A stretch of 64,000 nucleotides of DNA, from the NCBI GenBank assembly GCA_947497905.1, contig CANMIH010000013.1:1-64000 (forward strand), written 5' to 3'. Shown in pieces: positions 6,741 through 45,350 of this stretch (its first letter is position 1; every line of letters begins with the position of its first letter). The DNA comes from an uncultured Pelagimonas sp. (GTDB taxonomy: Bacteria; Pseudomonadota; Alphaproteobacteria; Rhodobacterales; Rhodobacteraceae). The translations under genes and the position numbers were made by a program. Below the pieces are notes generated by a model, which saw only the letters and a list, made by a program, of their open reading frames with translations, had not been told where the DNA came from and made no database searches.

Positions 6741-8186
6741 TTAGCGTGCGCAGGCCAAAAGGCCGTCGACGTCCAGATGAGTTTCCATGTGATCCGCCAG
6801 CCGGTCGAGCGTGGTCTCGACTGTGGCGTCATAGCTGTCACCGCTGCTGGAGCCGCCGACGCTCTCCAGCCATGCCGCGCGAAACGCATCGTCTCGGAAC
6901 ATCCCGTGAAGATAGCTTCCCGCGATTTTGCCGTTGGCGCTGATGGCACCCTCTGGACTGCCGTCGATTATGCCAAAGGGGCGGGCGCGGTCAGGGCCAG
7001 AGGATCGCCCGATATGGATTTCATACCCATGAAAGGCTTTGCCGCTCGGGGCGTGAACAGCCTCCACTTCGGTCAGGCGTTTGTCGCCGGTCATTTCGGT
7101 CTCAATATCAAGCAGGCCCAGACCCGGGGTTTCGCCTGCGGGGCCTTCGATACCTTGAGGGTCGCGGATGATCTGACCCAACATCTGATAGCCGCCGCAG
7201 ATCCCCAGAACATGGCCACCCCGCCGCATATGGGCTTGAAGATCAATGTCCCAGCCCTGCGCACGCAGGAAGGCCAGATCGCCAATCGTGGATTTGCTGC
7301 CGGGTAGGATGACCACATCCGTGTCGCCGGGCAGGGGCTGGCCTGCGCGCAGCATGGTTAGGCGAACACCGGGTTCCTGTGCGAGCGGGTCGAGATCGTC
7401 AAAGTTTGCCATACGCGACAGGCAAAGGCAGACAACGTGCAATCCGTTGTCACGGGTCGGTGTGCCAACATCCAGCGCATCTTCGGCTGGCAGTTGCCAG
7501 GCGTCAGCGAACCAAGGTGCCACACCAAAGCCGCGCCAGCCGGTGTGATCAGCGATCATCTGATACCCATCGTCGAACAGGCTCGGATCGCCGCGAAACT
7601 TGTTGATCATAAAGCCCGCCACCAGAGCAGCATCGTCTGGGGCAATCACAGCCTGCGTGCCCACGATCTGCGCAATCACACCGCCGCGGTCGATGTCACC
7701 GCATAGAATCACGGGGACCTGGGCGGCCTGCGCAAAGCCCATATTGGCGATGTCGCCCTTGCGCAGATTGACCTCTGCGGGGCTGCCTGCGCCTTCAACA
7801 ATCACAAGATCATATTTTGATTTGAGCCGCTGAAAGCTCTCTTGAACCGCCTGCATCAGCGTGGGTTTGAGCTTGGCATAATCACGGGCCTTGGCGGTGG
7901 TCAGGCGTTTTCCCTGTACCACAACCTGCGCGCCAACATCGGTTTCGGGCTTCAAAAGCACCGGGTTCATATCTGTGTGGGGGCGCAGACCACAGGCCAG
8001 CGCCTGAAGCGCCTGCGCGCGGCCAATTTCACCTCCGTCCGAGGTCACGGCGGCGTTGTTTGACATGTTTTGCGGCTTAAAAGGCGCAACCGACAACCCC
8101 CGCCGGGTTGCGGCCCGGCACAGCCCAGCCACCAGCATGGATTTCCCGACATTTGAGCCGGTGCCTTGGATCATCAGCGCTGTCAT
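6741..8186 (-). CDS. cobQ: Cobyric acid synthase (adenosylcobyrinate a,c-diamide amidotransferase)
   Basis: Amidates four side chains of the corrin ring using glutamine and ATP. The 481-aa protein has an N-terminal dethiobiotin-synthetase-like domain with the P-loop [21 protein letters not shown] and [15 protein letters not shown]. The C-terminal class I glutamine amidotransferase domain has [12 protein letters not shown] containing the nucleophilic Cys. I start at [10 protein letters not shown] because the eight residues upstream precede the conserved fold. It ends the minus-strand unit cobO-lin0512-lin0512-cobQ, 87 bp after the second Lin0512 gene. Confidence 0.96.
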
Positions 8187-8273
8187 TTGCGTACCCTCAT
8201 CTTGCCGCAAGTCTGCCCCTAAACCCGTTTCACGTCTGAGGCAATCGCGGCAAAATGAAAGGCTGTCGCGGCG

Positions 8274-8618
8274 TCAGGCCTGCATTGGCATAAAGGCCTC
8301 AACTGCGGCTTGGGCGATTACGGTGATCTCGCCTGTGTCTGGATTGGTGACGTTTAGACCGCCAAACACGGCTTTGACCTCGGCCCGGCCACGCGGCAGG
8401 GTTTTGGCAAGCTCAGCGCAATCCACCTGATCCGGGTCTTGCACGGCGACCGTGACCTGCACCCGCATTTCGGTGTGTGGAATGTTCAATGCACCAAACA
8501 TAGGGATCGAGCTGTGACGCAGCGCGTCCTGGATCGCCCGGCCTGCGGCTTTGGTATAATCCATCCCATGCAGGTCATTGCCCATACCCATTTCGATGAT
8601 GAAACGCTGGTCGCTCAT
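8274..8618 (-). CDS. Lin0512 family conserved protein, motif-retaining paralog
   Basis: A 114-aa protein of the Lin0512 family, whose biochemical function is unknown. The family signature GxGxDxHG is intact here as GMGNDLHG near residues 11-18, followed by DYTKAAGRAIQDALRHSSI. I start at MSDQRFIIEMG because this ATG overlaps the upstream gene's stop as ATGA and is preceded by GGAGGAG. It lies between cobO and cobQ together with a paralog lacking the motif, so a link to corrinoid metabolism is a reasonable inference only. Confidence 0.85.
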   Translation of the reverse strand: MSDQRFIIEMGMGNDLHGMDYTKAAGRAIQDALRHSSIPMFGALNIPHTEMRVQVTVAVQDPDQVDCAELAKTLPRGRAEVKAVFGGLNVTNPDTGEITVIAQAAVEAFMPMQA

Positions 8619-8965
8619 GTCCGCTCCTCCACATCCAATGAGACCGAGATCGCGACATTGGCCATCACAGTCGGAGCACCGCCATCGGCTCGGGGGGCGT
8701 CTAACCCACCGGCGTGACACTGCACGGTGACCTGTCCATAGGGGAAGGTGGCGGCTACTTTGTCGGTGTCGACCTGTTCGGGCTGCGCCACGCCCACATC
8801 CACATGAATAATCATCTCGGATTTGTCTTTGCCAAACAACTCAGCAAGATTGATCGAGTTGTGCCACAGCGCATCTTTCACAGCACGCACCGCAGCTTCG
8901 GTATAGTCCTGACGGCGCAGGGACGATCCCATGCCGAATTCGGTCAACAGACGTTTGACGGGCAC
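8615..8965 (-). CDS. Lin0512 family conserved protein, motif-degenerate paralog
   Basis: A 116-aa paralog of the next gene. The two align at RLLTEFGMGSSLRRQDYTEA versus RFIIEMGMGNDLHGMDYTKA, and at AVKDALWHNSI versus AIQDALRHSSI. The signature GxGxDxHG is lost here (GMGSSLRR). The GTG start at 8965 is chosen because AGGAG lies six bases upstream; no ATG gives a plausible start. The pattern of one intact and one altered copy, translationally coupled, suggests a heteromer. Function unknown. Confidence 0.83.
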   Translation of the reverse strand: MPVKRLLTEFGMGSSLRRQDYTEAAVRAVKDALWHNSINLAELFGKDKSEMIIHVDVGVAQPEQVDTDKVAATFPYGQVTVQCHAGGLDAPRADGGAPTVMANVAISVSLDVEERT

Positions 8966-9017
8966 ATCTTTCTCCTGAAGGCAGTTTTGCCCCACGCTAG
9001 ACCGGGTTCAGAATGGG

Positions 9018-9084: not shown

Positions 9085-9693
9085 TTAAAACTCGACGCCT
9101 TTCTGCGCTTTGATGCCATCGCGGAAGGGGTGCTTGATCAGGGTCATCTCGGTCACCAGATCTGCCGCTTCGATCAGCTCGTCTTTGGCGTTGCGTCCGG
9201 TCAGACAGACGTGGGTCATGTCGGGCTTTTGTTCCAGCAGGAAGTCGACGACTTCGTCAATGTCGAGATAGTCATTGCGCAGCGCGATGTTGATCTCATC
9301 CAGCAGGACAAACTGGATATTGGGATCAAGGATCATCTCTTTGGCCAGATCCCAGCCGCGCTGGGCGGCGGCGATGTCGCGCTCGCGGTCCTGACTTTCC
9401 CAGGTGAACCCTTCGCCTGACACCTCAAATCGGCACTCTTTGGCAAACTTGGTTTTGAGAAGTTCGGCCTCACCGGTCATCCAGTTGCCTTTGATGAATT
9501 GCACCACGCCACAGGGCATGCCATGGGCAATGCAGCGCATGATCATACCGAATCCGGACGAAGATTTGCCTTTGCCTTTGCCGGTATGAACAAGGATCAG
9601 ACCCTTTTCTTCGGTCTTGGTCTCCATCATTCGATCGCGTGCGGCTTTGATTTTGCGCATCTTTTCGGCGTGGCGGGCGTTGACGTCTTCCAT
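9085..9693 (-). CDS. cobO: Cob(I)yrinic acid a,c-diamide adenosyltransferase (corrinoid adenosyltransferase, CobO type)
   Basis: Transfers the adenosyl group of ATP to Co(I) corrinoids. The 202-aa protein starts at MEDVNARHAEKM. It has the P-loop-like VHTGKGKGKSSSGFGM near residues 34-49, VVQFIKGNW, and FVLLDEINIALRNDYLD. The longer open frame upstream runs backwards through the cobalamin riboswitch and is not used. It is the first gene of the minus-strand unit, with its start only 56 bp from the riboswitch of the divergent operon. Confidence 0.96.
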   Translation of the reverse strand: MEDVNARHAEKMRKIKAARDRMMETKTEEKGLILVHTGKGKGKSSSGFGMIMRCIAHGMPCGVVQFIKGNWMTGEAELLKTKFAKECRFEVSGEGFTWESQDRERDIAAAQRGWDLAKEMILDPNIQFVLLDEINIALRNDYLDIDEVVDFLLEQKPDMTHVCLTGRNAKDELIEAADLVTEMTLIKHPFRDGIKAQKGVEF

Positions 9694-31727: not shown

Positions 31728-31737
31728 ACAAGAGTTT

Positions 31738-31772
31738 TGGGCGCGCCTTCGCTGCGCGCGCCCAGGGCTGGT
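31738..31772 (+). terminator. Terminator of the tct-atuA operon
   Basis: A perfect 9-bp stem TGGGCGCGC/GCGCGCCCA with a 9-nt loop lies 11 bp after the DUF4387 stop and is followed by a short TTTTA tract. A TTGACA at 31812-31817 downstream could belong to the promoter of the next gene, but I see no good -10. Confidence 0.65.
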
Positions 31773-31901
31773 TTTATACCGTTAGTTTTGCGTTCATTCC
31801 TGTTTCACGTGTTGACAAGGAATGTCTCCAAAGTCAGAAATTTGTCTGAGTGTGGGGATTTCCCTTTTTTAATTGGTTCTCTTTTGTGTGGGATATTTGT
31901 G

Positions 31902-34900
31902 ATGTCTAATTTTCACCTGTCGCGTGAATCGCGCGATAAAAATTCACGGTCTATTCTCGCTGCATTCCGCAAAATCCATGAAATGAAGGCGAAATCGCTC
32001 TTTTCGCTCGGTGGTGCGGTTTTGGTTTTGCCCCTGTTGGCGCAGGGTGCCGAGGCTGCTGCTTCTTTGGGTGGCATTGAAGGCGTTGCTGGCTTCCGTG
32101 TTCTCGAAGATGGATCTGTTGAGGTTGTCCTGAATTCGGGCGCCACCGTTGTTGTTGATGCCTCCAATGTGGAAAGCATCGATGGCAATCAGGTGATTGT
32201 CTCTGATGTGGCCGTGGCGGAGCTGTCGTCGCTGGCGGCTGGCAACGGAGCGGTTGCGGGTGCGTTTGGAAATGCTGGCGCGGCTGTGGGTGGTTTGCTT
32301 GGGCTGGGTCTCGCTGTTGGTGGCGGCGGCGGTGGTGGAGGTGGCGGTGGGTCGACCGCGATCTCCAAAACACTAAGCGTCATCGATGCACCTCTTGAGA
32401 ACGCTCTGGTCTTTTATGATAGCAATTCCGATGGTAACCCGGATCAATCCGAATTTCTGGGCCTGACCAATGCGCAGGGGGGGATCGACGTCAATTATAC
32501 CCCTGTGGATGGCGGGAAATTCATCATCATCCCCTCTCCGGTTGTTGATGCAAGCATCTATGGGTGGGACAGCGCGTTTGCCGCGACCTATGCGCCGGAT
32601 GCGGCGAACCCGATCATCACCCGCGATGTTGTCACCGATAACAGCTTTACACAGGTTCTTCTGGCCAATGACACAGGTGCCGGAACCGATCAGGTGGTGT
32701 CACCAGTGTCGACCCTTGTGTCCAGTGGCATGGATGAAGCGGTTCTTAAACAGGTTCTTGGCCTGCCGGCTGAAACAGATCTGAACACGCTTAACTTCTT
32801 CGAAGATCTCTCTTCTGGGGACAGTGCGGCTCAGGAGGCTGCGTCGAAAGTGGCCGGGTTCGCGGCGGCCATGGCCAAGGTTGTTGATGCTGCGGTGTCT
32901 GCGGCTTCAAGCAGCGGGACATTGACCGAAGCCGAGCTTCAGCAGATCACCCAAGATGCCTTTGCCGATGCGGGCAAAGTGCTCGCCGTGGCGACCGAAG
33001 GTGGTGTGAGCCTGGAAGATGCGCTTGAAGCCGCCTCGGCAGTTGCCGTAGCTGGTGCCATCAGTGACGGTGTGAACACTGATGATATGGCGGCAGAAAT
33101 CATCGCTGCAGCCGGGGGCGGTGCCTCGATTGACGACGCGATCACCACGGCTGTGACCACGCAGGCCACGGCGGGCAACTTGACCAGCGATCAAGTTGAC
33201 GGTGTGGAAGAAATCTCAGAGGCGGTGGCCACCGCTTCAACGGCCATCATCGAGATCTTCGAAGACGCGGTCATTCCGACGGGTGCCACTCTGGATGACA
33301 TCGAAGAACTGCTGAAGACCTCTCTGGACGATGCAACCGACGCGGCGGATGCGGCGATCAACGATGCGGTGAATGAACAGCTGCTCGGCGTGAAGCTGGA
33401 GGCGGATAGCAACGAGGCCACGGAAGGCCAGGTTGCTATTTTGAAAGGCAACGTGCTTGCAAACGATCTGAACGAAGATGGCACGGCGCTGGACTCCAAC
33501 ACGCGTGTGGACTCGGTCAATGGTCTGGATATGGCCGAAGGAGGCACCACCGACGGCACCTCAAGCTCGTTTGTGATCAGCACCCGCGATTGGGCCACAC
33601 CGGAACGGACTGTCTCGGTCCAAAGCATCGATGACGCTATGGGCTTGAACGGTGTCTTTCCTGAGGCCCGTCCCTTTGGTTCGCCTACTCGTGGCTCGGC
33701 AGTGATCGCCGAGATCACAGTTGGGGCAGGGGATACCATCAGCTATGACTATATCTTCGCCTCCTATGACTATATCCCTTACAATGACTACAGCTTCTTT
33801 GCGGTTCAGAACGTGGCAGGCGGCGCAGGCGTTGTGCTGCGGGGCGAAACCGGCGAAAGCACGGCAGGTCCGGCAGATGTACGTGACCTGAAAGGGCCGG
33901 GATATTACGTCAACGCAGGTGTTGAAACCAACACCTCCAAGAGCTTCAGCTACACCTTCACCGAAGCAGGGACCTACAAAATCGCCATTGGTGTAACGGA
34001 TGTCCGAGACACCATCGTCGACAGCAAAATCTCGGTCAGCAATATCGAACTGACCCCGAACGGTGGGACGGCGCAGCCGGTCACCGGCTTCACCGAACAC
34101 GGGAACGTTCAGGCCGAGGCGCCAACGGTAACCGCGCTCTCCGAGACCCTGTTGACCGGGTTCTATGGCACGCTGATCATCAATGAAACGGGCGATTACA
34201 TCTATCAGGTTGGCGGGCCGAATGCCGAGCCGATTGCCGAGGGTGAGGTTGTCACCGACAACTTCGACTACACCGTCAAACTGCCGGATGGCACCTTGGC
34301 GACCCAGACGCTGAGCATCAAAGTCACCGGGACGGCAGATGCGGCGGTGGATGCGCCGACCATTCTGCTGGATGTCAGCCCGATCAATGGGGCGGACATG
34401 ACGGCTGCGGTCTTTGCAGGTAGCACAACCAACGCTGTTGGTGAGACGATTGTTCTGACCATTTCGGACCAAGACCCGACCACCAGCGACATCATCATCT
34501 CGGACATCGTGGTGGACAGCGACGGCAACTTCGTGACCACACAGGATGTCTCGGGTTTGACCGATGGCGAGCTCTCGGTCACGGCCACAGTGAACACCAC
34601 CAACGGCTCGGCCTCATCGACAGCACAGGCCGAACTGGATCGCACGGCGGATGAGGGGGGCGACTACGCTCTGACCTATTCGCCTGCGGTGGATGGAATT
34701 ACCACCATTGATGTTACTGGGTTGGACGCCGATGCCCTGCTAACGATCACGGCGACCGATGGGGTTGTGACCGAGACCTTCGAAATCGCTGCAAACGGAA
34801 CAGGGTATTCCTTCGATGTCAGTGCTCTGAACCCGGCTTTGACTTGGACCGGTTCTGCAATCATCGTCGATAACCTCGGCAATGAGCAGACCTTCCCGGC

Positions 34901-37900
34901 CGAAACCGTGTATCAGCCTCAAGTGTCGGTGGATATTACTGGTGGTGTCATTAACCAACTGGAAGCAAACTCTGTTTTGATCTTGGGCACATCCACTGTG
35001 CCCAATGGGATTGTCACACTTGATGTTGGCGGGATTGTTGTGTCCGGTGTGACCACAGGTGCAGATGGGTCGTTCTCCGCAACCGTCGATGTCTCGGGGT
35101 TGCCAAATGATGGCCAGATCACGGCCTCCGCGTCGGTGACATTTGGAGGTGTCACCACTGCACCGGCCACGGATACAGCTACATTGGACCGCACGGCTGA
35201 TGCGGATACACCTGCAACCATGAAGATCGTCGCTATCGGTCCGGATGTTCTGGTAACCATTGCCGGGCTGGATGATGATGCCACAGCTCAGGTTACACTC
35301 AACGATGTCTTTTTAGGCGCAGCGGGCAATGGGTCCTTCACCGTGACCGGTGCAAACACGGGCAGTGTCCTTTCGGGACATCTGAATATTTCAGATGCCG
35401 CCGGGAACTCAGCGCTCGTTTTTGCGGACCCGGGGTTTGCTCCAACCATCAATCTTGTCATCCCAACGGTGACTGCCGCGAACGCAGGTTCGGTTGAAAT
35501 CACCGGGACAACAACGGCTACGGTCGGCACCATGCAGCTGACCATTTCGGATGCGGATGGCGCGACGGTTGACGTCATGCCAGCAGCGGTGACTGTTGCC
35601 GCCGATGGGACGTTCACGGTGACGGGTATTGATCTCTCTGGTCAGGTTGACGGGGCTCTGACGGTCACGGCAGTGCAAACCTACGAGGGGTTGACCTCGT
35701 CTTCGGACGACGCCGGGGTGAAAGACACCGATGCCGGTAGCGTAACAGTCACACCGTCGGGCTTTGCGATTGTGGCCGGTGAAGCAATGGTCAACATCGA
35801 TGTTTCCAACCTCGAACCAGGGGCCAGCGTGGTGGTTTCCATGACCGCTCCGGGTGAAGCTCCTGTCAGTGTGACAGCAAATGCCAATGGCACGGTGTCT
35901 GTGCCATTGGGCGGTGCAGATGGAGGTGAAACACTCAGCTTCAGCTATGTCCTGACCGATCCGGTTGGAAACACGGCTTCGGGTACCGCACCAGACGCCA
36001 TTGCTCCGCGCGTGATCAACACTGATACGGGAGAAGGCTTCCAGACGCTGCAGGCTGCAATTGATGCGGCGGCGGATGGGGAAACGCTGCAGATGGACAG
36101 CGGGCAGTTCAACGAAGATGTCACCGTCGACAAACAGCTGACCATCAAAGGCGCACAGGCAGATGTCTCGGCCAAGTTTACCCCGGGACAGCTTGATCCA
36201 AACATGGATGGGTCGCCCCGCGGGGATGAGACCGAGATCCTCGGGACCGTGACCATTGCCTCCGACGACGTGACCTTGAACGGTCTGGCACTCGAAGATC
36301 CTGATGAGCCTCTGACCTGGGACGAAAGTCTTCTGGCGGGCAATCCAGGGGCGCTTGATAACTTTACGATGATCAACACGATCATCGAAGGGTTCAAAGC
36401 CTCAGGATCGCCGACCTTCAATGCCGGATCCACCGCAACCCGGGGCAGCTATGACGGTCCTGCCGTTGCAGATGGCTGGGTGATCGAGAACAACTTCATT
36501 GGTGGGGTGACCGAGGGCAACGGTGGTGCGCTGTACCTCAGCGGTCTGTCCAATGCTTCGATTTCCGACAACATGTTCTGGCGCCCCGCCGCTGGCCATA
36601 TGTATGTGTCTTCGCTGACAGACATCGAGATTGATGGAAACTTCTTCTATCACGGTGTCCATGCGGGTGGCGCGGACTTTGACGGATTTGGCGATGAGTT
36701 CTCGGGCAACGGGTATGGTTACGGCTATGGCTACGGTGCGGGTGGCGCGCCATCGGATCCCTTCTTTGGCCGGAACTTCTGGATCGAGATGAAAGGTGAC
36801 AACGACGGTGTGATGATCACCGGCAACGATGGTCAGTTCAACTCGGGCGGCATTCAGCTTTATGGTCAGGACTTGGCCTACGACTTTGACAACATCACAA
36901 TCAGTGGCAACACCTTCCGTGATTTCGTCAATGCCGATCCGTTTGGTGTGCTGGAAGGCAACGGCAAATCGGGCTTTATGGGCGCGATCAACGTTGCGGG
37001 TCTCGATGGCAGCCAGGTTGAAAATCTGGTCATCACCGGAAACACGATCACCGGCAACGCTGATCAGATCTATTCCGACAGGGATGTCTTCAGCCTGATC
37101 GTGTTGCAGGGTGACATCGTCGGCGCAGTGATCGATGACAACATTCTGACCTGGGACACCTCCAGCACCGATATCACCACGGTCCTGCAGACGCTTGGGG
37201 CGCCAACGAGCCTGTTTGATGGTGGCTTGGGAGCCATCGGTATGTCGGGTGGCTTGAGTGGTGTTATCAATATCGAAGGCAACACCTTTTCTGAATCGGT
37301 ACCAAGCGGACCGGGAGAACCTGGGCAGGTGATTGGCGTACTTGTCTTCGCTTCAGACGCGAGTGGGACCTTCCAGGCGGAGTTGACTGAAGTCGGCAAT
37401 GACTTTAGCGGCTGGACGGATCCCAATGCCCTTGATCTGGTGTTTGTGAATATCCCAGAGGGATACACCCCACCAGAAATCAGCCTTGAAACACCCGATA
37501 CCTTTGTTTTTGCAGGTGGTGTTTTGATCCCGCTGCGTCTGGGAGACGATACCGCCAATACGCTCACAGGCACAGGGAACAACGAACTGTTCTTCGGAGC
37601 GGGGGGAGACGACGCGATCAGCCTGGGTGGTGGACAAGACATTGTGGTGGTGGATCCAAGCGATCCAGCGGCCAATGGAACGGATACCATCACAGGGTTT
37701 GACACCGGCGCGTTTGGGTCTGGTAATCCCGATGGGATCTTCTTTGCCAGCCTGTCCCAGGGGGATCTCCGCGGCGATGGTTCGGGCTCTCAGAAGATCG
37801 ATGATGTTTCCGATGCGATCAACGTCAATGCTGGGTTGCTGATCTTTGACAACAGTATGAGCGCGGCGGATGTAACAACCGTTCTGACTTCGCTTGGAGG

Positions 37901-38060
37901 GGACAGTGTTCTCTTCGCGACAAGCGATGGGGCCAACACTGAAATCGGCCTGTGGGATGGATCCTCAACATCGGATCTGGCGGTTCTCAACGGAATTGCG
38001 AACCCAAGCGATCTGGACAGCTCGCAGTTCCTGCAGTTTGCGACCTTGCCAGAGGTTTAA
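31902..38060 (+). CDS. Giant type I-secreted surface protein with Ig-like repeats and beta-helix
   Basis: A 2052-aa acidic protein. From residue 28, MKAKSLFSLGGAVLVLPLLA is a hydrophobic N-terminal segment, then a BapA-prefix-like region (GSVEVVLNSGATVVVDASNV), a poly-Gly run near 140-150, an Ala-rich helical region, and a jelly-roll 'choice-of-anchor'-like domain about 550-720. Three Ig-like repeats (about 810-1360) each end in DRTAD or a variant. A parallel beta-helix starts at FQTLQAAIDAAADGETLQM (about 1370-1850). One RTX-like turn, FFGAGGDDAISLGGGQD, and a C-terminal type I secretion-type tail follow. The ATG at 31983 is the alternative start. Adhesin or S-layer-like role inferred; Ca2+ binding likely at the RTX turn. 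Confidence 0.88.
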   Translation: MSNFHLSRESRDKNSRSILAAFRKIHEMKAKSLFSLGGAVLVLPLLAQGAEAAASLGGIEGVAGFRVLEDGSVEVVLNSGATVVVDASNVESIDGNQVIVSDVAVAELSSLAAGNGAVAGAFGNAGAAVGGLLGLGLAVGGGGGGGGGGGSTAISKTLSVIDAPLENALVFYDSNSDGNPDQSEFLGLTNAQGGIDVNYTPVDGGKFIIIPSPVVDASIYGWDSAFAATYAPDAANPIITRDVVTDNSFTQVLLANDTGAGTDQVVSPVSTLVSSGMDEAVLKQVLGLPAETDLNTLNFFEDLSSGDSAAQEAASKVAGFAAAMAKVVDAAVSAASSSGTLTEAELQQITQDAFADAGKVLAVATEGGVSLEDALEAASAVAVAGAISDGVNTDDMAAEIIAAAGGGASIDDAITTAVTTQATAGNLTSDQVDGVEEISEAVATASTAIIEIFEDAVIPTGATLDDIEELLKTSLDDATDAADAAINDAVNEQLLGVKLEADSNEATEGQVAILKGNVLANDLNEDGTALDSNTRVDSVNGLDMAEGGTTDGTSSSFVISTRDWATPERTVSVQSIDDAMGLNGVFPEARPFGSPTRGSAVIAEITVGAGDTISYDYIFASYDYIPYNDYSFFAVQNVAGGAGVVLRGETGESTAGPADVRDLKGPGYYVNAGVETNTSKSFSYTFTEAGTYKIAIGVTDVRDTIVDSKISVSNIELTPNGGTAQPVTGFTEHGNVQAEAPTVTALSETLLTGFYGTLIINETGDYIYQVGGPNAEPIAEGEVVTDNFDYTVKLPDGTLATQTLSIKVTGTADAAVDAPTILLDVSPINGADMTAAVFAGSTTNAVGETIVLTISDQDPTTSDIIISDIVVDSDGNFVTTQDVSGLTDGELSVTATVNTTNGSASSTAQAELDRTADEGGDYALTYSPAVDGITTIDVTGLDADALLTITATDGVVTETFEIAANGTGYSFDVSALNPALTWTGSAIIVDNLGNEQTFPAETVYQPQVSVDITGGVINQLEANSVLILGTSTVPNGIVTLDVGGIVVSGVTTGADGSFSATVDVSGLPNDGQITASASVTFGGVTTAPATDTATLDRTADADTPATMKIVAIGPDVLVTIAGLDDDATAQVTLNDVFLGAAGNGSFTVTGANTGSVLSGHLNISDAAGNSALVFADPGFAPTINLVIPTVTAANAGSVEITGTTTATVGTMQLTISDADGATVDVMPAAVTVAADGTFTVTGIDLSGQVDGALTVTAVQTYEGLTSSSDDAGVKDTDAGSVTVTPSGFAIVAGEAMVNIDVSNLEPGASVVVSMTAPGEAPVSVTANANGTVSVPLGGADGGETLSFSYVLTDPVGNTASGTAPDAIAPRVINTDTGEGFQTLQAAIDAAADGETLQMDSGQFNEDVTVDKQLTIKGAQADVSAKFTPGQLDPNMDGSPRGDETEILGTVTIASDDVTLNGLALEDPDEPLTWDESLLAGNPGALDNFTMINTIIEGFKASGSPTFNAGSTATRGSYDGPAVADGWVIENNFIGGVTEGNGGALYLSGLSNASISDNMFWRPAAGHMYVSSLTDIEIDGNFFYHGVHAGGADFDGFGDEFSGNGYGYGYGYGAGGAPSDPFFGRNFWIEMKGDNDGVMITGNDGQFNSGGIQLYGQDLAYDFDNITISGNTFRDFVNADPFGVLEGNGKSGFMGAINVAGLDGSQVENLVITGNTITGNADQIYSDRDVFSLIVLQGDIVGAVIDDNILTWDTSSTDITTVLQTLGAPTSLFDGGLGAIGMSGGLSGVINIEGNTFSESVPSGPGEPGQVIGVLVFASDASGTFQAELTEVGNDFSGWTDPNALDLVFVNIPEGYTPPEISLETPDTFVFAGGVLIPLRLGDDTANTLTGTGNNELFFGAGGDDAISLGGGQDIVVVDPSDPAANGTDTITGFDTGAFGSGNPDGIFFASLSQGDLRGDGSGSQKIDDVSDAINVNAGLLIFDNSMSAADVTTVLTSLGGDSVLFATSDGANTEIGLWDGSSTSDLAVLNGIANPSDLDSSQFLQFATLPEV

Positions 38061-38069
38061 AATCAATCA

Positions 38070-38104
38070 CCTGCGCCGGATATTGTCCGGCGCAGGTTTC
38101 TTTT
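38070..38104 (+). terminator. Strong hairpin terminator after the giant surface protein
   Basis: A perfect 11-bp stem CCTGCGCCGGA/TCCGGCGCAGG with a 5-nt loop is followed by TTTCTTTT. It starts 10 bp after the stop codon and ends directly before the CAGGAGG of the next gene, so read-through would be needed for co-transcription of that gene. Confidence 0.88.
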
Positions 38105-38118
38105 CAGGAGGTCATTTT

Positions 38119-38985
38119 TTGTCCACGTCATTGAACCTGTGGGGTCAGTCCGTTTTGGGATTGGCCCTAACCGCATTTTTAGCGCCCGCCTCTGTCAACG
38201 CGCAGACTGCCACCATTAGTGGCGAAGATTATCTGGCTTATTTATCCTCACTAACGTCACAGACGTCCGCCACCAGCCGGACCCGCACCCGTGGTGCAAG
38301 TACGGTGGGGGTGCCAAGCGGCTTTACCCTCGCGAAAAATATGGGGTTTGCGGCGGTTGCGTTATCCGATCGCCGCGAACGTACTGCGACGCGAGAGGCG
38401 GATGGCTCATTTGCCTTTGGTGTCGGATTTGGAGACGCGCGTAAGTCTGTCGGCTTCGAAGCGATTGTCGGCTTGAGCAGCGTCGGCGCGGGGGTCGGTA
38501 GCAAATTCGACCTTGGTGACTTTGGGGATTCCGGCTCTCTCAACTTCAAGCTTTCGCGTGAAGTTACGTCCATTTTCGATGGGGAAATTGCAAGCGTGGC
38601 CTTTGGTGTAGGGCGAGCTGTGCGCTGGGGGGATATGACGAATGAAGACCCCAATTACTACCTGGCCTATTCCAGCACCTTTGCGGTGCCGATGTCCGAG
38701 TATCGCGACATGTCAGGGCTTTTGACCTTCGGCGTTGGCTCGGCGATCGGCACTCAGGAAGACAAATCCGGGGCGTTTCTGGGCGTTGGCCTGGGCGTGA
38801 CCGATTGGCTTTCGGTGGGGGGATCTTGGTATGGAGACGAGTTCACCGCAGGTGTGTCGTCGACAATCGATCTGCGCAAAGATCTGAGCCTTCAGGTCGG
38901 GGTGAGCTATGGCGACGTGACGAAAAAGAATTCAGATGGGCGGTGGAACCTGACCTTCGCCTTGGTGGATGCCAAACTTTTTTAA
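38119..38985 (+). CDS. Putative outer-membrane beta-barrel protein
   Basis: A 288-aa exported protein. I start at the TTG at 38119 because a strong CAGGAGG lies seven bases upstream and the result is a clean signal peptide, MSTSLNLWGQSVLGLALTAF, with cleavage near VNA/QT. After a Ser/Thr/Arg-rich linker (about residues 55-65), the body consists of short alternating strands with Gly turns (FGVGFGDARKSVGFEAIVGL, LSLQVGVSYGDV) and ends in Phe, as outer-membrane barrels do. Family not recognised. Position directly after the giant secreted protein suggests an anchoring or export-related role. Confidence 0.72.
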   Translation: MSTSLNLWGQSVLGLALTAFLAPASVNAQTATISGEDYLAYLSSLTSQTSATSRTRTRGASTVGVPSGFTLAKNMGFAAVALSDRRERTATREADGSFAFGVGFGDARKSVGFEAIVGLSSVGAGVGSKFDLGDFGDSGSLNFKLSREVTSIFDGEIASVAFGVGRAVRWGDMTNEDPNYYLAYSSTFAVPMSEYRDMSGLLTFGVGSAIGTQEDKSGAFLGVGLGVTDWLSVGGSWYGDEFTAGVSSTIDLRKDLSLQVGVSYGDVTKKNSDGRWNLTFALVDAKLF

Positions 38986-39007
38986 CTCAAGGAAGGAAAC
39001 CCAAGTT

Positions 39008-39472
39008 ATGCGACAGTTGATTTCCATTGTGACAGCAGGGGTGCTGGCAGGTCCGGCTCTTGCGGGGCAGATCGCCGTTGTGACCCCTCCAAACATTGTT
39101 GTGCCGACCCCAAGCCCGGTTGTCGCGCCTCCCGCACCGGCACCCACCGTTCCCCCTGTGGTCGCAGCCCCGGTGACGCCAGTGACGCAACCCGCGTCTC
39201 CAGCCGTAACACCGGGCGTCGCCACGCCTGGGGCGACACCGGGCGCCACACCCAGAGCAAGACAGGTCGCGATTGCGCCTTCCGTTGGAGGGGGCAGTTC
39301 CGTGCCGCTGACCTCAGTCCAGAGCTTTAATGTCGGCAGTCTTTCAACTCCTCAGGCGCAGGAAGCTGTGGGTCTGATCCAGCAGGCTCTGAGATCTGGC
39401 AATCTCAGCCGCGCAGAGCGACAGGTTCTGACAGGTCAGCTTGGCCAGCTTCGGGCACAGCTGGGTCAGTAA
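39008..39472 (+). CDS. Small exported Pro/Ala/Thr-rich protein
   Basis: A 154-aa protein with signal peptide MRQLISIVTAGVLAGPALAG. A stretch rich in Pro, Val, Ala and Thr follows (residues 25-85, with PTPSPVVAPPAPAPTVPPVV), then a helical C-terminus (TPQAQEAVGLIQQALRSGN, LTGQLGQLRAQLGQ). The start follows AAGGAAA; an ATG 39 bp upstream lacks a signal sequence. No family recognised. The Pro-rich part could span the cell wall, and the gene sits between the surface-protein genes and their secretion system. Confidence 0.7.
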   Translation: MRQLISIVTAGVLAGPALAGQIAVVTPPNIVVPTPSPVVAPPAPAPTVPPVVAAPVTPVTQPASPAVTPGVATPGATPGATPRARQVAIAPSVGGGSSVPLTSVQSFNVGSLSTPQAQEAVGLIQQALRSGNLSRAERQVLTGQLGQLRAQLGQ

Positions 39473-39506
39473 TCGTCTGTGATCTGAGGCAATCCGTGCG
39501 CCTGAT

Positions 39507-39535
39507 CAGGCCTTTCGCTATTCGCGGAAGGCCTG
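39507..39535. terminator. Convergent terminator between the Pro-rich protein gene and hlyD
   Basis: Inverted repeat CAGGCCTT/AAGGCCTG with additional inner pairs CGC/GCG lies in the 45-bp convergent gap. It overlaps the last codons and stop of hlyD (39518). The plus-strand side is followed by TTCTTTG. Confidence 0.7.
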
Positions 39536-40822
39536 TTCTTTGACTTTGATGACCGGTCGAGTGATGTAGTCCATCACAGTTTTGCGCCCGGCCAGAATAT
39601 CGACCTGCGCAATCATGCCCGGCATAATCTGCACCGCTTCTCCCGCCGCGTCCAAGATGGTGGTATCGGTGCGAATTTCTGCGACAAACACCTCTTCTTC
39701 GCTGCGCTGCGAGCGCTGGATCGTATCCGCGCCGATCCGCACGATCTCGCCGTTCAGCCCGCCATATCGGGCAAAGTCATAGGCGGTGATTTTCACCTTT
39801 ACCTGTTGTCCGGGATAGATAAAGGCAATGTCATTGGGCAGAATATAGGCCTCGACCAGAAGGCTGTCATCCAGGGGCACAAGCTCGACAAGCTCATCCC
39901 CGGCGCGGGCGGTGCTGCCAATGGTGGTGCGGTGAATGCGGTTGACGATGCCGCGTACATGGGCATGGATCTGCGCCCGGTCGGCCCGCTGTTCCAAAGC
40001 AGGTAGGCTGGCTTTGAGCGCAGCCAGCTCTGCGGTGGAAATGGCCAATTCGGTCAGGGCATCCGCTTTGTACCGGCGCCGTTGCGCCGCGATCTTTTCG
40101 TCAATCTCGGCCAGAGCGGCGTCAATCCCGTCAATCGAGGCCTGCGCCTGCACCTTGCGACCTTCCCATTCGGCTTCATTGCGGCGCAGTGACAAAAGGG
40201 TGGTTTGCGGTTCAATTCCGCGCTCAACCAACGGTTCCATCATGGCGCGTTCTTCTTTCAGCACTTCGATGGTCAGCTTGGCCGTTTCGAAATCAACCAG
40301 AAAGGCTTTGTGGTCGTTTTCACGCTGGCTGCGCTGATTGTCCAAAATGGCAATTTCGGTGGCCAGAGCGTCCAATCGTCCGCGATAGAGCGCGGCCTCG
40401 GATTTGACGACATCTGCGGCTTTGACCACCAGATCCTCGTCAAACAGCAGGTCCCCTCCGCCAATTTCGGTTTCAAGGCGCTGGATACGGGCCATCAACC
40501 CAAAGGCGCGTTGCATTTCCTGATCGAGCTTGGAGGTCAGTTGGACTCCATCCAGCTCCATCAACAAGGTGCCTTTTTCAACGATTTCACCTTCCGAAAC
40601 ATGCAGTGTTTTCAGAACACCGTTTTCCGCTGCTTCAATGACCTGTACATCGCCCGAGGGCACAATCCGCCCATCCGCCCGGGTGACATCATCGATCTCG
40701 GTCAATGCGGCCCAGGCGCCGGCTGCGCCCAAAAACAGTATGATCGCCAGCAACAGCAGACTGTTGCGCAGGGGTGAACGGCCCTTCATGGAACGGGCCA
40801 ATGCGTCAAAATCCTGGCTCAT
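39518..40822 (-). CDS. hlyD: Type I secretion membrane-fusion protein (HlyD family)
   Basis: A 434-aa periplasmic adaptor with one N-terminal membrane helix (about residues 20-40, LLLLAIILFLGAAGAWAAL). A lipoyl/barrel-sandwich half follows (GRIVPSGDVQVIEAAENGVL, VSEGEIVEKGTLLMELDG), then a long coiled coil (about 150-280) and the second half with IHAHVRGIVNRIHRTTIGS. It bridges the ABC transporter and TolC-type channel. It starts by ATGA overlap with the ABC gene. It is SapE/LapC-like by position. Confidence 0.94.
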   Translation of the reverse strand: MSQDFDALARSMKGRSPLRNSLLLLAIILFLGAAGAWAALTEIDDVTRADGRIVPSGDVQVIEAAENGVLKTLHVSEGEIVEKGTLLMELDGVQLTSKLDQEMQRAFGLMARIQRLETEIGGGDLLFDEDLVVKAADVVKSEAALYRGRLDALATEIAILDNQRSQRENDHKAFLVDFETAKLTIEVLKEERAMMEPLVERGIEPQTTLLSLRRNEAEWEGRKVQAQASIDGIDAALAEIDEKIAAQRRRYKADALTELAISTAELAALKASLPALEQRADRAQIHAHVRGIVNRIHRTTIGSTARAGDELVELVPLDDSLLVEAYILPNDIAFIYPGQQVKVKITAYDFARYGGLNGEIVRIGADTIQRSQRSEEEVFVAEIRTDTTILDAAGEAVQIMPGMIAQVDILAGRKTVMDYITRPVIKVKEQAFRE

Positions 40823-42945
40823 GAGCTGGCCTCTTTCTGGGGTGCACCGCGCTGCAGGATCGATTTGGGTCCGTCAGCCTGAATTTTGCCGTCGCCAATG
40901 ACAATCACGCGGTCTACCAGATCCAGAAGGCTGGTTCTGTGCGTGATGATCACCATGGTGCTGTCCTGCATCTGGGTTTTGATATTGTTGATGACCTCAG
41001 CTTCTTTCTGCACATCCATCGCGCTGGTGGGTTCATCCAGAAGAAGCATGGGCGGCGCACCGACAAGCGCACGGGCGAGGGTGATGGCCTGTTTTTGCCC
41101 CCCCGACAGGCCTTCGCCCTTTTCGCCTAGCGGCATGTCATAACCCGCCGGGTGCCGGGCGGCGAACTCTTCCACACCGGCGATACGTGACGCCCGCAAG
41201 ATTTCCTCGTCACTTGGGCGGATGCCGCCGATTGAGATGTTGTCGCGCAGCGTGCCGGAAAATAGCCAGACATCCTGAAGCACGGATCCGACGTTGCGCC
41301 GCAGGTCGCCGGGATCAATCTGGCGAATGTCCACGCCATCAACCCGAACTGCGCCTTTTGACGGTTGATACAGCCCCAGCAACATGCGCGCGATGGTGCT
41401 TTTGCCCGATCCGATGCGGCCCAGAATAGCGACCTTTTCCCCCTGCTTGATGGTAAAGGACACACCTTTGAGCGTTTCAACCAGTTGATCGGGGTAAGTG
41501 AAATGCACATCCTCAAAGGTGATATCGCCTTTGAGGGTGGGGCGCGAAATCCAGTTGCGATCGTCGGGGCGTTCTGAGGCGGACTGCATCATCTCGTTGA
41601 GATTGCGATACGAGCTGCGCACCTGATTGACCCGCGTCAGGGTCTGGGCGAGCTGCGCCAAGGGTGCCAGACAGCGCCCGGTGAGGATCACCGCAGCAAT
41701 CAAGGCCCCCATGCTGGTGACACCTTCCGAGATGAGGAATACCCCGTAGAAGATGATCATCACCTGCGCCGCTTGCTGGGTGAAGGCGGTGGCATTGAGC
41801 GCAAACTGTGTCAGCGCCCGGCTTTTGCCGCTGTGCTGGGCCTGTTTGCTGATGGATTCTTCCCAACGCGCCCGCATATAGCGCGCGGCCCCCGAGGATT
41901 TGATGGTCTCAAGCCCGGTGATGGTTTCGATCAGGACGGCCTGTTTCGACTGACCATCCTGCGCGGAACGATCTGCGAGACGACGCAGGAAAGGCTGGAC
42001 CAGCATGCCAATCACCAGAACCAGAGGCACCGCGATGGCCGGGATCAGTGCCAGTGGCCCACCAATCAGATGGATCACAAAGATGAACATGACAATGAAC
42101 GGCAGGTCGACCACCGCAACAATACTTGCCGAGGTGAAGAAATCCCGCACCGTCTCAAACTCGCGCAGCGTATTGGCCATGGCCCCGGTTGAGCCTTTGC
42201 GCTCGGCCATTTGTAGATCGAGGAGTTGGTCAAATATCCGCCGCCCCATCAGCAGGTCGGCCTTTTCACCGGCTTTGTCGATAAATCCTGCCCGCATCAT
42301 CTTGATCAGGAAGTCAAAGATCAGGGCGATGGCGATGCCGCTTGTCAAAGCCACCAGAGATTCCATGGCCTCATTCGGCAGGATGCGGTCGTAGACCACC
42401 ATGGTGAAAATCGAAGTCGAGAGCCCAAGAATTGAAGTCAGGATCGCGGCCAGAACCACCTGAAGATATGACCAGCGGTTGGCAGCCATCGCCGACCAGA
42501 ACCAATGTCCGCGCGTGGTTTTGCGGTGCGTCAGGTCTTCGCTGAAATCTGCACGCAGCAACAGGGCATAGCCGGAATAGGCATCTTTCAGTTTCTCGCG
42601 CGAAATCTCTCCAAGCGTGTCCCCAAGCTCGGGGTCGTAGACCACATAGGTCTTTTTGCGCACCTTGTGCAGGACAACCGCTCGGTCGTTGTCCAGAAAC
42701 AGGATGGCCGGGGTCAGGCTGTCGTCAAACGTACTGAGTTTGCGTTTGCCAAAGCCGGCCTGCACACCCGCCCGTTCGGCCACCTGCAGGGCATCGGGAA
42801 CTGACAGAAAGCCTTTGGGGTCCGAGATGGCAGAAAACAGCGCCGCATGGGTGATCGGGCGATCAAGTTCAGAGGTGACATGCAGCAGACAGGCTTCGAG
42901 CGCAGACAGGGCACGGTCGGGGATCAGGGACAGGTCAGGAGTCAT
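40819..42945 (-). CDS. Type I secretion ABC transporter with C39-like domain (LapB/SapD type)
   Basis: A 708-aa fused permease-ATPase. Residues 1-120 form a C39 peptidase-like domain without the catalytic Cys (VLHKVRKKTYVVYDPELGD), typical of exporters of large non-processed adhesins. The membrane domain spans about 150-430. The ATPase has Walker A LGRIGSGKSTIARMLLGLY, signature LSGGQKQAITLARALV, and Walker B PPMLLLDEPTSAMD. It is coupled by ATGA to both tolC upstream and hlyD downstream. The likely substrate is the giant surface protein encoded convergently. Confidence 0.95.
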   Translation of the reverse strand: MTPDLSLIPDRALSALEACLLHVTSELDRPITHAALFSAISDPKGFLSVPDALQVAERAGVQAGFGKRKLSTFDDSLTPAILFLDNDRAVVLHKVRKKTYVVYDPELGDTLGEISREKLKDAYSGYALLLRADFSEDLTHRKTTRGHWFWSAMAANRWSYLQVVLAAILTSILGLSTSIFTMVVYDRILPNEAMESLVALTSGIAIALIFDFLIKMMRAGFIDKAGEKADLLMGRRIFDQLLDLQMAERKGSTGAMANTLREFETVRDFFTSASIVAVVDLPFIVMFIFVIHLIGGPLALIPAIAVPLVLVIGMLVQPFLRRLADRSAQDGQSKQAVLIETITGLETIKSSGAARYMRARWEESISKQAQHSGKSRALTQFALNATAFTQQAAQVMIIFYGVFLISEGVTSMGALIAAVILTGRCLAPLAQLAQTLTRVNQVRSSYRNLNEMMQSASERPDDRNWISRPTLKGDITFEDVHFTYPDQLVETLKGVSFTIKQGEKVAILGRIGSGKSTIARMLLGLYQPSKGAVRVDGVDIRQIDPGDLRRNVGSVLQDVWLFSGTLRDNISIGGIRPSDEEILRASRIAGVEEFAARHPAGYDMPLGEKGEGLSGGQKQAITLARALVGAPPMLLLDEPTSAMDVQKEAEVINNIKTQMQDSTMVIITHRTSLLDLVDRVIVIGDGKIQADGPKSILQRGAPQKEASS

Positions 42946-44309
42946 AGCTCAGCCAGATAAATGCCAAAAGCGTCAATGATATCACCGGTCAGGGCGAGGG
43001 CCTGATATCCCGTCAGGATATGTTCCCTGTCAGCCTCAACCTTGGTCTGCTGCGCCCGCACATAATCTCGCTGGGCGTCGAGCACCTCCAGAAGGGTGCG
43101 ACGGCCAATGGTGAATTCCTCCAGCGCGGCGTCCACCGTTTTCTGGTTTGCGGCCACAGCGGTACGCGCGGTGCGCAGGCGTTTGCTTCCTGCGGTGCGA
43201 TCAGAGGCCAGAAAATCCAACGCGCGTTTGATGTCGCGGCGCAGGCGTTCGCGTTCTGCTGTCACGCGGGCGACCTCGGCCGTTGCGCGGTCAATCGCGG
43301 CCTTGGCCTCGCGCCGGTTGTCGAAACTGTAGTTGACGGACAAATCAAACTTAACATCCGCGCCGCCGCCGTTGCCCTGACGGGCCGTGCTGCCAAATTC
43401 GATGCTAGGCGCCCGTTCGGCTTTGGCCTGAAGTTCACGCGCAACGGCAACGTCGTATTCCGAGTTGATGGCGCGCATGCGGGGACTGGCGTAAATGGCG
43501 ACCTCCGAGGTCCGGTCTATTGTTGGAGCTTGCGGAGGGCGGGGTAGGGTGCCTGCCACCAATCCAAAGGTTTCTTCATAGCGGGCGCGGGCCTGATCCA
43601 GCGAGTTTTCTGCATCGGCAACCTGGGTTTGGGCATCGGCCAATCGGGCACGGATGATCAGCACATCGCTTTCGGACCCGGCTCCGAGCCTCCGACGCTC
43701 TTCCACCTGATTGAGAAATCTGCGGTGCGTGCCCAGATTGCGCCGCACCAGACCCAGCATATCCTGAGCGGCCAGCACGTTCAGATAGGCTTCAACCGCA
43801 GCCATTGCGGTGCTGGAGGCGGAAACCATGCGATCATCGCGGGCTTTCACGGTGCTGGCCTGCGCTGCCACCTTGTTGTGCCGCGCTGCCCCCCCGTCAT
43901 AGATCAGCTGTGAGATGCGCAAATAGGGCCCGCTGGAGTCATCAAAGCTGTCAGAGCTTGCGTTGTAGCTTGTGGCCAGATTGGCCCCGACCGAAACCGA
44001 CGGGCGAAACGCCCCAGATGCGGATTCCAGATCTGCGCTGGCCGAGGCAATCAGGGCATTTGAGCTGCTCAGATCGGGATGGCTGACCACCGCCGTGGCC
44101 ACGGCCCGCCCGAAACTGGTTTTGCTCACCGCAGCAGAGACACGCGGTTTTTCTGGGAAGGGGGCGGCGTCGGTCAACGTGACCTGTTCGGTGATTTCAA
44201 CAGGTGTGTTGAGGTCAGCGGGTGTTTCTTCGTTTGAACCCAACTGGGCGCAGGCGGAGAGTGTTACTCCGGTTATCACCCCGAACAATGGCAGCATCCG
44301 GTAAGTCAT
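42942..44309 (-). CDS. tolC: TolC-family outer-membrane channel of the type I system
   Basis: A 455-aa outer-membrane efflux protein. The N-terminus MTYRMLPLFGVITGVTLSAC looks like a lipoprotein signal with lipobox LSAC. Two repeated OEP domains follow with long alpha-helical segments (MVSASSTAMAAVEAYLNVLA, VDAALEEFTIGRRTLLEVLD) and the usual YVRAQQTKVEADREHILTGY near the C-terminus. It overlaps the sapC stop by ATGA and the ABC transporter start by ATGA. Confidence 0.92.
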   Translation of the reverse strand: MTYRMLPLFGVITGVTLSACAQLGSNEETPADLNTPVEITEQVTLTDAAPFPEKPRVSAAVSKTSFGRAVATAVVSHPDLSSSNALIASASADLESASGAFRPSVSVGANLATSYNASSDSFDDSSGPYLRISQLIYDGGAARHNKVAAQASTVKARDDRMVSASSTAMAAVEAYLNVLAAQDMLGLVRRNLGTHRRFLNQVEERRRLGAGSESDVLIIRARLADAQTQVADAENSLDQARARYEETFGLVAGTLPRPPQAPTIDRTSEVAIYASPRMRAINSEYDVAVARELQAKAERAPSIEFGSTARQGNGGGADVKFDLSVNYSFDNRREAKAAIDRATAEVARVTAERERLRRDIKRALDFLASDRTAGSKRLRTARTAVAANQKTVDAALEEFTIGRRTLLEVLDAQRDYVRAQQTKVEADREHILTGYQALALTGDIIDAFGIYLAEL

Positions 44310-45115
44310 GTGCGGTCCATCTCGTCATATTGAATTTCAGAGGCTTCAGCGTCAAAGGCCGTGGCCATGGCCGATAGAAATGTTTCGGCGGTGGCCTCAG
44401 GTTTGACTGTTTGAGTGGGGGCAGGCGCAGAAAGGGCAACGGAAAGCCGTTGCATCGAAATCAGCTGAGCAAAGGCCACTTCCAATCCACCGGTCTGCAT
44501 CAGTTTCAGCATGCGGGGTGCAGAAAGGGCATAAAGCGCGGTGCGGTTGAGGATGTATTTCCGGTCGAACATCGGATCATCCAGCGAGGCATAGCCGCGC
44601 AAGGGGCGCAAAACCTTGCCCTTGAGCAGTGATTGTGTGGCGTCCTGCAGTCGGAAATAGTCAGCGTGGAAGTCGCGCATCACATCGGTGACCGGAGATA
44701 CGTCATTTGCCGGGGCGCCCGTTGCGGACCAAAGCTCAAGCCCACCTGATGCGGTCAGGAGATTCGGGCTGTTTTCGAGATATCCCGGGGCAAATGTGGC
44801 GCGCTGAGACAGGTCGGGTGCAAAGGGGTGCATCCGCAGCAACGCAGGGACATATCCCGCCCGCCACTGTCCGGATGGATCGACAACAGACTGCCCTTGT
44901 GCGCCAAATGACAAGAGCGCCTCAAGCCGGTGGCAGGTCCCGGTGTCGACAAGGCAAAGAGGGAGATGCGCCGCAGCACGGTGGAGTTCGCTCCAGGCCA
45001 GAGGCACCGAGACATAGGATCGAGCAAAGGCGAAGGATTCGTATCGTGTCCAAGACCGTGGACCGGAGGCGGAAAAGGTAAGTTCTTTAAAATGCGCGAA
45101 AAAATCGCGTTCCAT
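44306..45115 (-). CDS. sapC: SapC family protein (S-layer-associated)
   Basis: A 269-aa protein with the SapC-family pattern: AFARSYVSVPLAWSELHRAA, LPLCLVDTG, a GQSVVDPSGQWRAGYVPALLRMHPF block around residues 80-105, then LFSATGAPA-like sequence and FHADYFRLQD. I begin at MERDFFAHF, because the preceding 34 codons do not resemble the family and no ribosome-binding site favours a longer form; even here the site is weak. It heads the sapC-tolC-ABC-hlyD operon. In Campylobacter fetus, sapC is adjacent to the type I secretion genes sapDEF of the S-layer protein. Biochemical role unknown. Confidence 0.85.
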   Translation of the reverse strand: MERDFFAHFKELTFSASGPRSWTRYESFAFARSYVSVPLAWSELHRAAAHLPLCLVDTGTCHRLEALLSFGAQGQSVVDPSGQWRAGYVPALLRMHPFAPDLSQRATFAPGYLENSPNLLTASGGLELWSATGAPANDVSPVTDVMRDFHADYFRLQDATQSLLKGKVLRPLRGYASLDDPMFDRKYILNRTALYALSAPRMLKLMQTGGLEVAFAQLISMQRLSVALSAPAPTQTVKPEATAETFLSAMATAFDAEASEIQYDEMDRT

Positions 45116-45350
45116 GGTACACAAGGCACTAATCAACCAAACAAAAGTCACAAAAAAACAGCTGCACCCCCGCGCAGCCTGCCCGTGAATTCTGTGCGGA
45201 AGTTCAACGGAAAGCAAGAGTTAGTTTTTTGTTAACGATGGCGGGGAGGGCATGGATTTTTGAGAGGGCGCGCTGTACTAATATTTTAGAGGTGATGCGG
45301 AGCGCTTCACCCTTCAAAGAAAAGTGACGCGGGGCCAGTTGTCAAAAAAA

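Follow-up and report, generated by a model that had tools for sequence, protein, structure and literature searches.

The protein family Lin0512, whose function is unknown, has members in Listeria, Nostoc and many alphaproteobacteria; its hallmark in the family description is the motif GxGxDxHG. No paper in the literature collection searched names Lin0512. The single-copy members from Listeria, Azospirillum and Bradyrhizobium are encoded by one gene and keep this motif (15/15 of those tallied, as well as the Listeria and Azospirillum proteins). In Listeria innocua (L240, 7980-9041), the gene with the motif GFGVDVHG has a helix-turn-helix regulator on one side and a type 1 glutamine amidotransferase on the other, and no cob genes were found in that stretch. 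The Nostoc punctiforme protein Npun_R1471 (PDB 3c8l, 'FtsZ-like protein of unknown function') consists of one chain type, which carries the DxHG part of the motif.

The window, i.e., the whole stretch of 64,000 nucleotides analysed here, differs from these systems in having two co-encoded paralogs and hence two chain types. The adjoining Lin0512-family (PF09585) genes, designated LinA and LinB, occupy positions 8274-8965 of the minus strand. LinA scored 114 bits and LinB 118 bits against PF09585 (cut-off 23.4), and 69 and 72 bits, respectively, against TIGR02058 (cut-off 56.85). The two proteins align end to end with about 37% identity and have their length, Glu9, Gly11, Gly13 and Arg27 in common with the single-copy proteins. 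The open reading frames and both family profiles thus confirm the original prediction of two coupled Lin0512 paralogs of 114 and 116 aa that align along their full length and overlap by ATGA. The placement of the pair between cobO and cobQ was equally borne out, as NCBIfam and Pfam profiles confirmed the identities of CobO and CobQ. Both genes are co-directional with the pair, cobO lying directly upstream of LinA and cobQ downstream of LinB, and the cob genes of the window around LinA and LinB make up a full aerobic cobalamin cluster (Table 1).

Table 1. Features of the Lin0512 locus and its cobalamin neighbours, in window positions
Feature	Positions	Strand	Details
cobQ, cobyric acid synthase	6741..8210	-	NF001989 640.9 bits, TIGR00313 446.2 bits
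LinB, Lin0512-family subunit	8274..8618	-	114 aa, motif GMGNDLHG
ATGA stop/start overlap, LinA-LinB translational coupling	8615..8618	-	sequence
LinA, Lin0512-family subunit	8615..8965	-	116 aa, GTG start, motif GMGSSLRR
Ribosome-binding site GGAGGAG of LinB	8624..8630	-	sequence within LinA 3' end; 5 bases 5' of ATG
Ribosome-binding site AGGAG of LinA	8972..8976	-	sequence; 6 bases 5' of GTG
cobO, corrinoid adenosyltransferase	9085..9675	-	TIGR00708 212.8 bits
Cobalamin riboswitch RF00174	9732..9943	+	90.2 bits

At the left edge of the window, within a repeated stretch, positions 3-288 of the plus strand carry three consecutive tRNA genes of equal score (3-74, 112-183 and 217-288). Farther along, at 31737-45217, the list of open reading frames includes a repeat-type surface or secreted protein of about 2100 aa, which is followed by genes resembling those of type I secretion (for an ABC transporter, a membrane fusion protein and an outer-membrane protein).

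The pair was sought in 150 genomes of the family to which the window belongs, and 45 of them proved Lin0512-positive. Two tandem matches were present in 44 of these 45. In the remaining positive genome (G142), the search had missed a strongly diverged LinB gene immediately downstream of LinA, so the tandem is kept in 45/45. This LinB (L204, 7203-7540; MGQGTDSEGD...) is very long-branched and lies beside a normal LinA, one subunit thus diverging fast. In the class sample, 29/290 Alphaproteobacteria genomes were positive, nearly all of them with pairs; the single-copy cases among the 290 represent a third type with an intact GxGxDxHG. Sampling outside Pseudomonadota was sparse. In trees of 61-71 sequences, LinA forms one clade (SH-aLRT 95) and LinB another (94), with the single-copy proteins outside both. 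The gene order in tandem pairs is LinA, then LinB, and a 4-base overlap occurs in 40/64. The LinA and LinB distances correlate at 0.66, a value also expected from common descent. The simplest account of these trees and gene orders is one early alphaproteobacterial duplication followed by long retention in tandem. The pair is an old, obligate two-subunit variant of a known family.

Residues were tallied over 64 LinA, 65 LinB and 17 single-copy sequences. At position 17, 98% of the LinA sequences have Arg, LinB is divided between His (53%) and Tyr (46%), and the single-copy proteins have His throughout (100%). At position 15, LinA has Ser (73%) or Asp (25%), and Asp is nearly universal in LinB (98%) and invariant in the single-copy sequences (100%). 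Trp occupies position 34 in 100% of LinA; position 36 is Asn in 100% of LinA and Ser in 100% of LinB, and Trp34-His35-Asn36 is fixed in LinA. Glu9, Gly11, Gly13, Asp20, Arg27 and His35 are conserved at 82-100% in every group.

The original prediction held that one paralog keeps the hallmark motif and that the other has lost it. The hallmark is indeed present in the LinB of the window and is not matched by its LinA, and the His is absent from every LinA sequence tallied, in contrast to the single-copy proteins with their His at the position of the LinA Arg. However, 'lost' is too strong a word for a position at which Arg is fixed at 98%, and what LinB keeps as a group is the Asp, its His being shared nearly evenly with Tyr. 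By profile and tree, LinA is a divergent branch of Lin0512 and a non-canonical member. Judged from its sequence, it is a specialised subunit and not a decayed one, because Arg17, Trp34 and Asn36 are fixed. The LinAs that retain Asp mostly read GMGTDIRG, and in the tree they stand apart from the main group, which has GMG[ST]SLRR; therefore, His was probably lost before Asp in this subunit.

AlphaFold2 single-chain models had a pLDDT of 91.9 for LinA and 90.6 for LinB. Both predicted chains match 3c8l over their whole length (Z 17.4 for LinA and 16.0 for LinB), with 37-38% sequence identity. FtsZ chains come next after 3c8l in the Foldseek and VIA lists. The likeness concerns the C-terminal domain of FtsZ/CetZ, which matches LinA and LinB with a Z of about 7-8 across about 90 residues at 6-15% identity, and a Z of 7-8 can mean a common arrangement only. 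The N-terminal GTPase domain of FtsZ is absent from LinA and LinB, which are single-domain proteins of their modest length. Chorismate mutase and RidA also appear in the Foldseek list, and IspF (2-C-methyl-D-erythritol 2,4-cyclodiphosphate synthase) is a weak fold match to LinB (Z 6.2). Chains of IspF, chorismate mutase and RidA form trimeric rings with ligand sites at the subunit interfaces.

The comparison with IspF bears on the possibility of a pair in which only LinB has a metal site like that of IspF, formed by Asp15, His17 and His35, and in which LinA is non-catalytic and serves for regulation or as a scaffold. The spacing GxGxDxH in strand 1 is the same in LinB (GMGNDLH) and in IspF (GNGFDVH and similar), IspF is among the fold matches, and LinA always lacks the His and mostly lacks the Asp. 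However, Tyr replaces this His in almost half of the LinB sequences, and the near-invariance of Arg17, Trp34 and Asn36 in LinA goes beyond what a scaffold would need. Lin0512 proteins are also about 40 residues shorter than IspF. Homology to IspF by profile was rejected, the comparison of the IspF and Lin0512 profiles with hhalign giving a probability of <2% and hence no relation. An IspF-like metal site in LinB would thus be a motif analogy only, because the two profiles do not match, and this division of roles between a non-catalytic LinA and a metal-binding LinB appears quite improbable.

The best reading of the pair is a two-subunit complex with specialised halves, because the tandem pairing is strict and LinA has fixed residues of its own where LinB has kept Asp15. 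The pairing, the duplication and the split of residues suggest a heteromer with a composite site, to which a probability of about 0.6 is assigned. Early in the history of Alphaproteobacteria, the gene of a homomeric Lin0512 ancestor would have been duplicated once, in tandem, and the products LinA and LinB would have become obligate subunits of one heteromeric protein. Each chain is predicted to adopt the small alpha/beta fold of the Nostoc protein, which resembles the C-terminal domain of FtsZ and shows a remoter likeness to IspF and chorismate mutase. LinB would contribute to the composite site the acidic and His-or-Tyr end of strand 1 (Asp15, His/Tyr17), and LinA would contribute the fixed Arg at the same spot together with Trp34-His35-Asn36; Glu9, Asp20, Arg27 and His35 are common to both subunits. 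We infer that the complex probably handles a small metabolite, perhaps phosphorylated or metal-bound. The heteromer proposed originally, made of an active and an inactive partner, is well supported in its first part, although indirectly, by the duplication, the tandem pairing, the frequent overlap of the two genes and the separate, strong constraint on each subunit. Its 'active/inactive' division is doubtful because LinA has its own fixed residues.

An alternative possibility is that the pair has a general function in metabolite handling or detoxification, RidA-like in role, and that its linkage to cob genes reflects hitch-hiking in an operon. The neighbours of the pair are varied and include an acetolactate-synthase-like enzyme, FMN reductase, a glyoxalase-like protein, FAD oxidoreductase, an aminotransferase, a PLP enzyme and a Rieske oxygenase, which together with the presence of RidA among the Foldseek matches is consistent with such a role. 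The RidA matches are weak, however, with a TM of about 0.4 or less, and this explanation is considered rather unlikely.

In 16 of the 45 positive family genomes, no more than about 6 kb separates the pair from cob genes. Mostly this is cobO, the cob gene most often found beside the pair in the tally of neighbours (G113 was counted as cob-linked from its cobQ positions). The gene order is of two kinds: the main cluster has cobO-LinA-LinB-cobQ, and cobN-cobO-(bluB)-LinA-LinB is found elsewhere. Adjacency to cob genes would be expected in about 1% of cases from the estimated share of the genome near cob genes, and the binomial P is about 5e-21 if the genomes are independent. In the tree of joined LinA and LinB sequences, however, most of the cob-linked genomes belong to a single supported clade, and the linkage changes state at least eight times. 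This distribution fits one gain with repeated losses, and therefore the excess over chance would not arise from independent events. On the other hand, cobO staying adjacent while other neighbours change argues for a local functional tie. In this clade of the window's family, the pair would have been recruited into the cobO operon and may assist corrinoid adenosylation there.

These data are relevant to the view that the pair is a dedicated corrinoid factor, which helps CobO in adenosylation, in Co(II)/Co(I) handling or in delivery of the corrin ring, and acts elsewhere with B12-dependent enzymes. The excess of cobO neighbours in two arrangements is in its favour, and so are the neighbourhoods of three related loci (L088-L090), in which a gene for an MttB-type methyltransferase follows LinB; in one of them (L090, from the genome G138 without CobQ), a gene for a B12-binding protein lies <=5 kb from the pair. 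CobQ is also found more often in Lin0512-positive than in negative genomes, both in the class (22/29 vs 111/261, P 0.0007) and, weakly, in the family (42/45 vs 84/105, P 0.05). Against this view, the linked genomes belong mostly to the single clade described above, the approximately 20 loci examined outside the family showed no cob genes around the pair, and both CobO/BtuR and full-length CobQ are missing from ten positive genomes. These ten genomes led to the rejection of a requirement for the B12 pathway. The B12-binding domain PF02310 is present in 10/10 of them but is uninformative, being common in most bacteria. Control of the pair by a riboswitch was rejected as well. The riboswitch of the window is on the opposite strand, ahead of the operon DUF1636-cobW-cobN, which diverges from cobO-LinA-LinB-cobQ. 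It serves the former operon and not the latter, and a scan of 20 other, non-cob loci yielded no cobalamin riboswitch. A dedicated corrinoid role is thus unlikely overall, possible in one clade and no general property of the pair.

The pair was checked for constant co-occurrence with cob genes and proved to lie mostly far from them, in 29 of the 45 positive family genomes and at all loci examined outside the family. By the refuting condition given with the original prediction, a general B12 role therefore fails. The corrinoid part of that prediction is weak; nevertheless, the link with cobO in one clade of the family is far above chance and persists where the surrounding genes are rearranged. 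The proposed heteromeric complex would be independent of B12 synthesis. A bolder version of the corrinoid view regards the pair as a heteromeric enzyme or chaperone of a kind not yet described, with corrinoids as the target of its composite Asp/His(Tyr)-Arg-Trp-His-Asn site; its action would be coupled to adenosylation by CobO in one group, and another group would couple it to corrinoid methyltransferases. It is improbable; if true, it would fill a gap among the accessory steps by which Alphaproteobacteria use B12. The pair warns against naming a B12 protein from a single gene cluster. An obligate two-subunit form of Lin0512, whose residues are divided between the subunits in a defined way and beside which cobO recurs in one clade, provides concrete residues and a concrete phenotype to test.

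Some neighbourhoods of the pair recur as sets. At seven loci (L202, L207, L209, L210, L218, L099 and L065), assigned to the second, cobN-cobO type of locus, the pair is accompanied by genes for an acetolactate-synthase-like enzyme (PRK08199), an NADPH-dependent FMN reductase, a glyoxalase-like protein and an FAD oxidoreductase. L065 comes from a genome without CobO and CobQ, and members of the TPP-enzyme and FMN-reductase families are retained beside the pair there. Another syntenic group (L060, L064, L069, L084, L205, L206 and L220) has two large genes of about 970 and 1130 aa before LinA and LinB, in most cases with a thioredoxin gene, and two shared genes of about 200 and 450 aa after them, which by their size are putative hslV and hslU.
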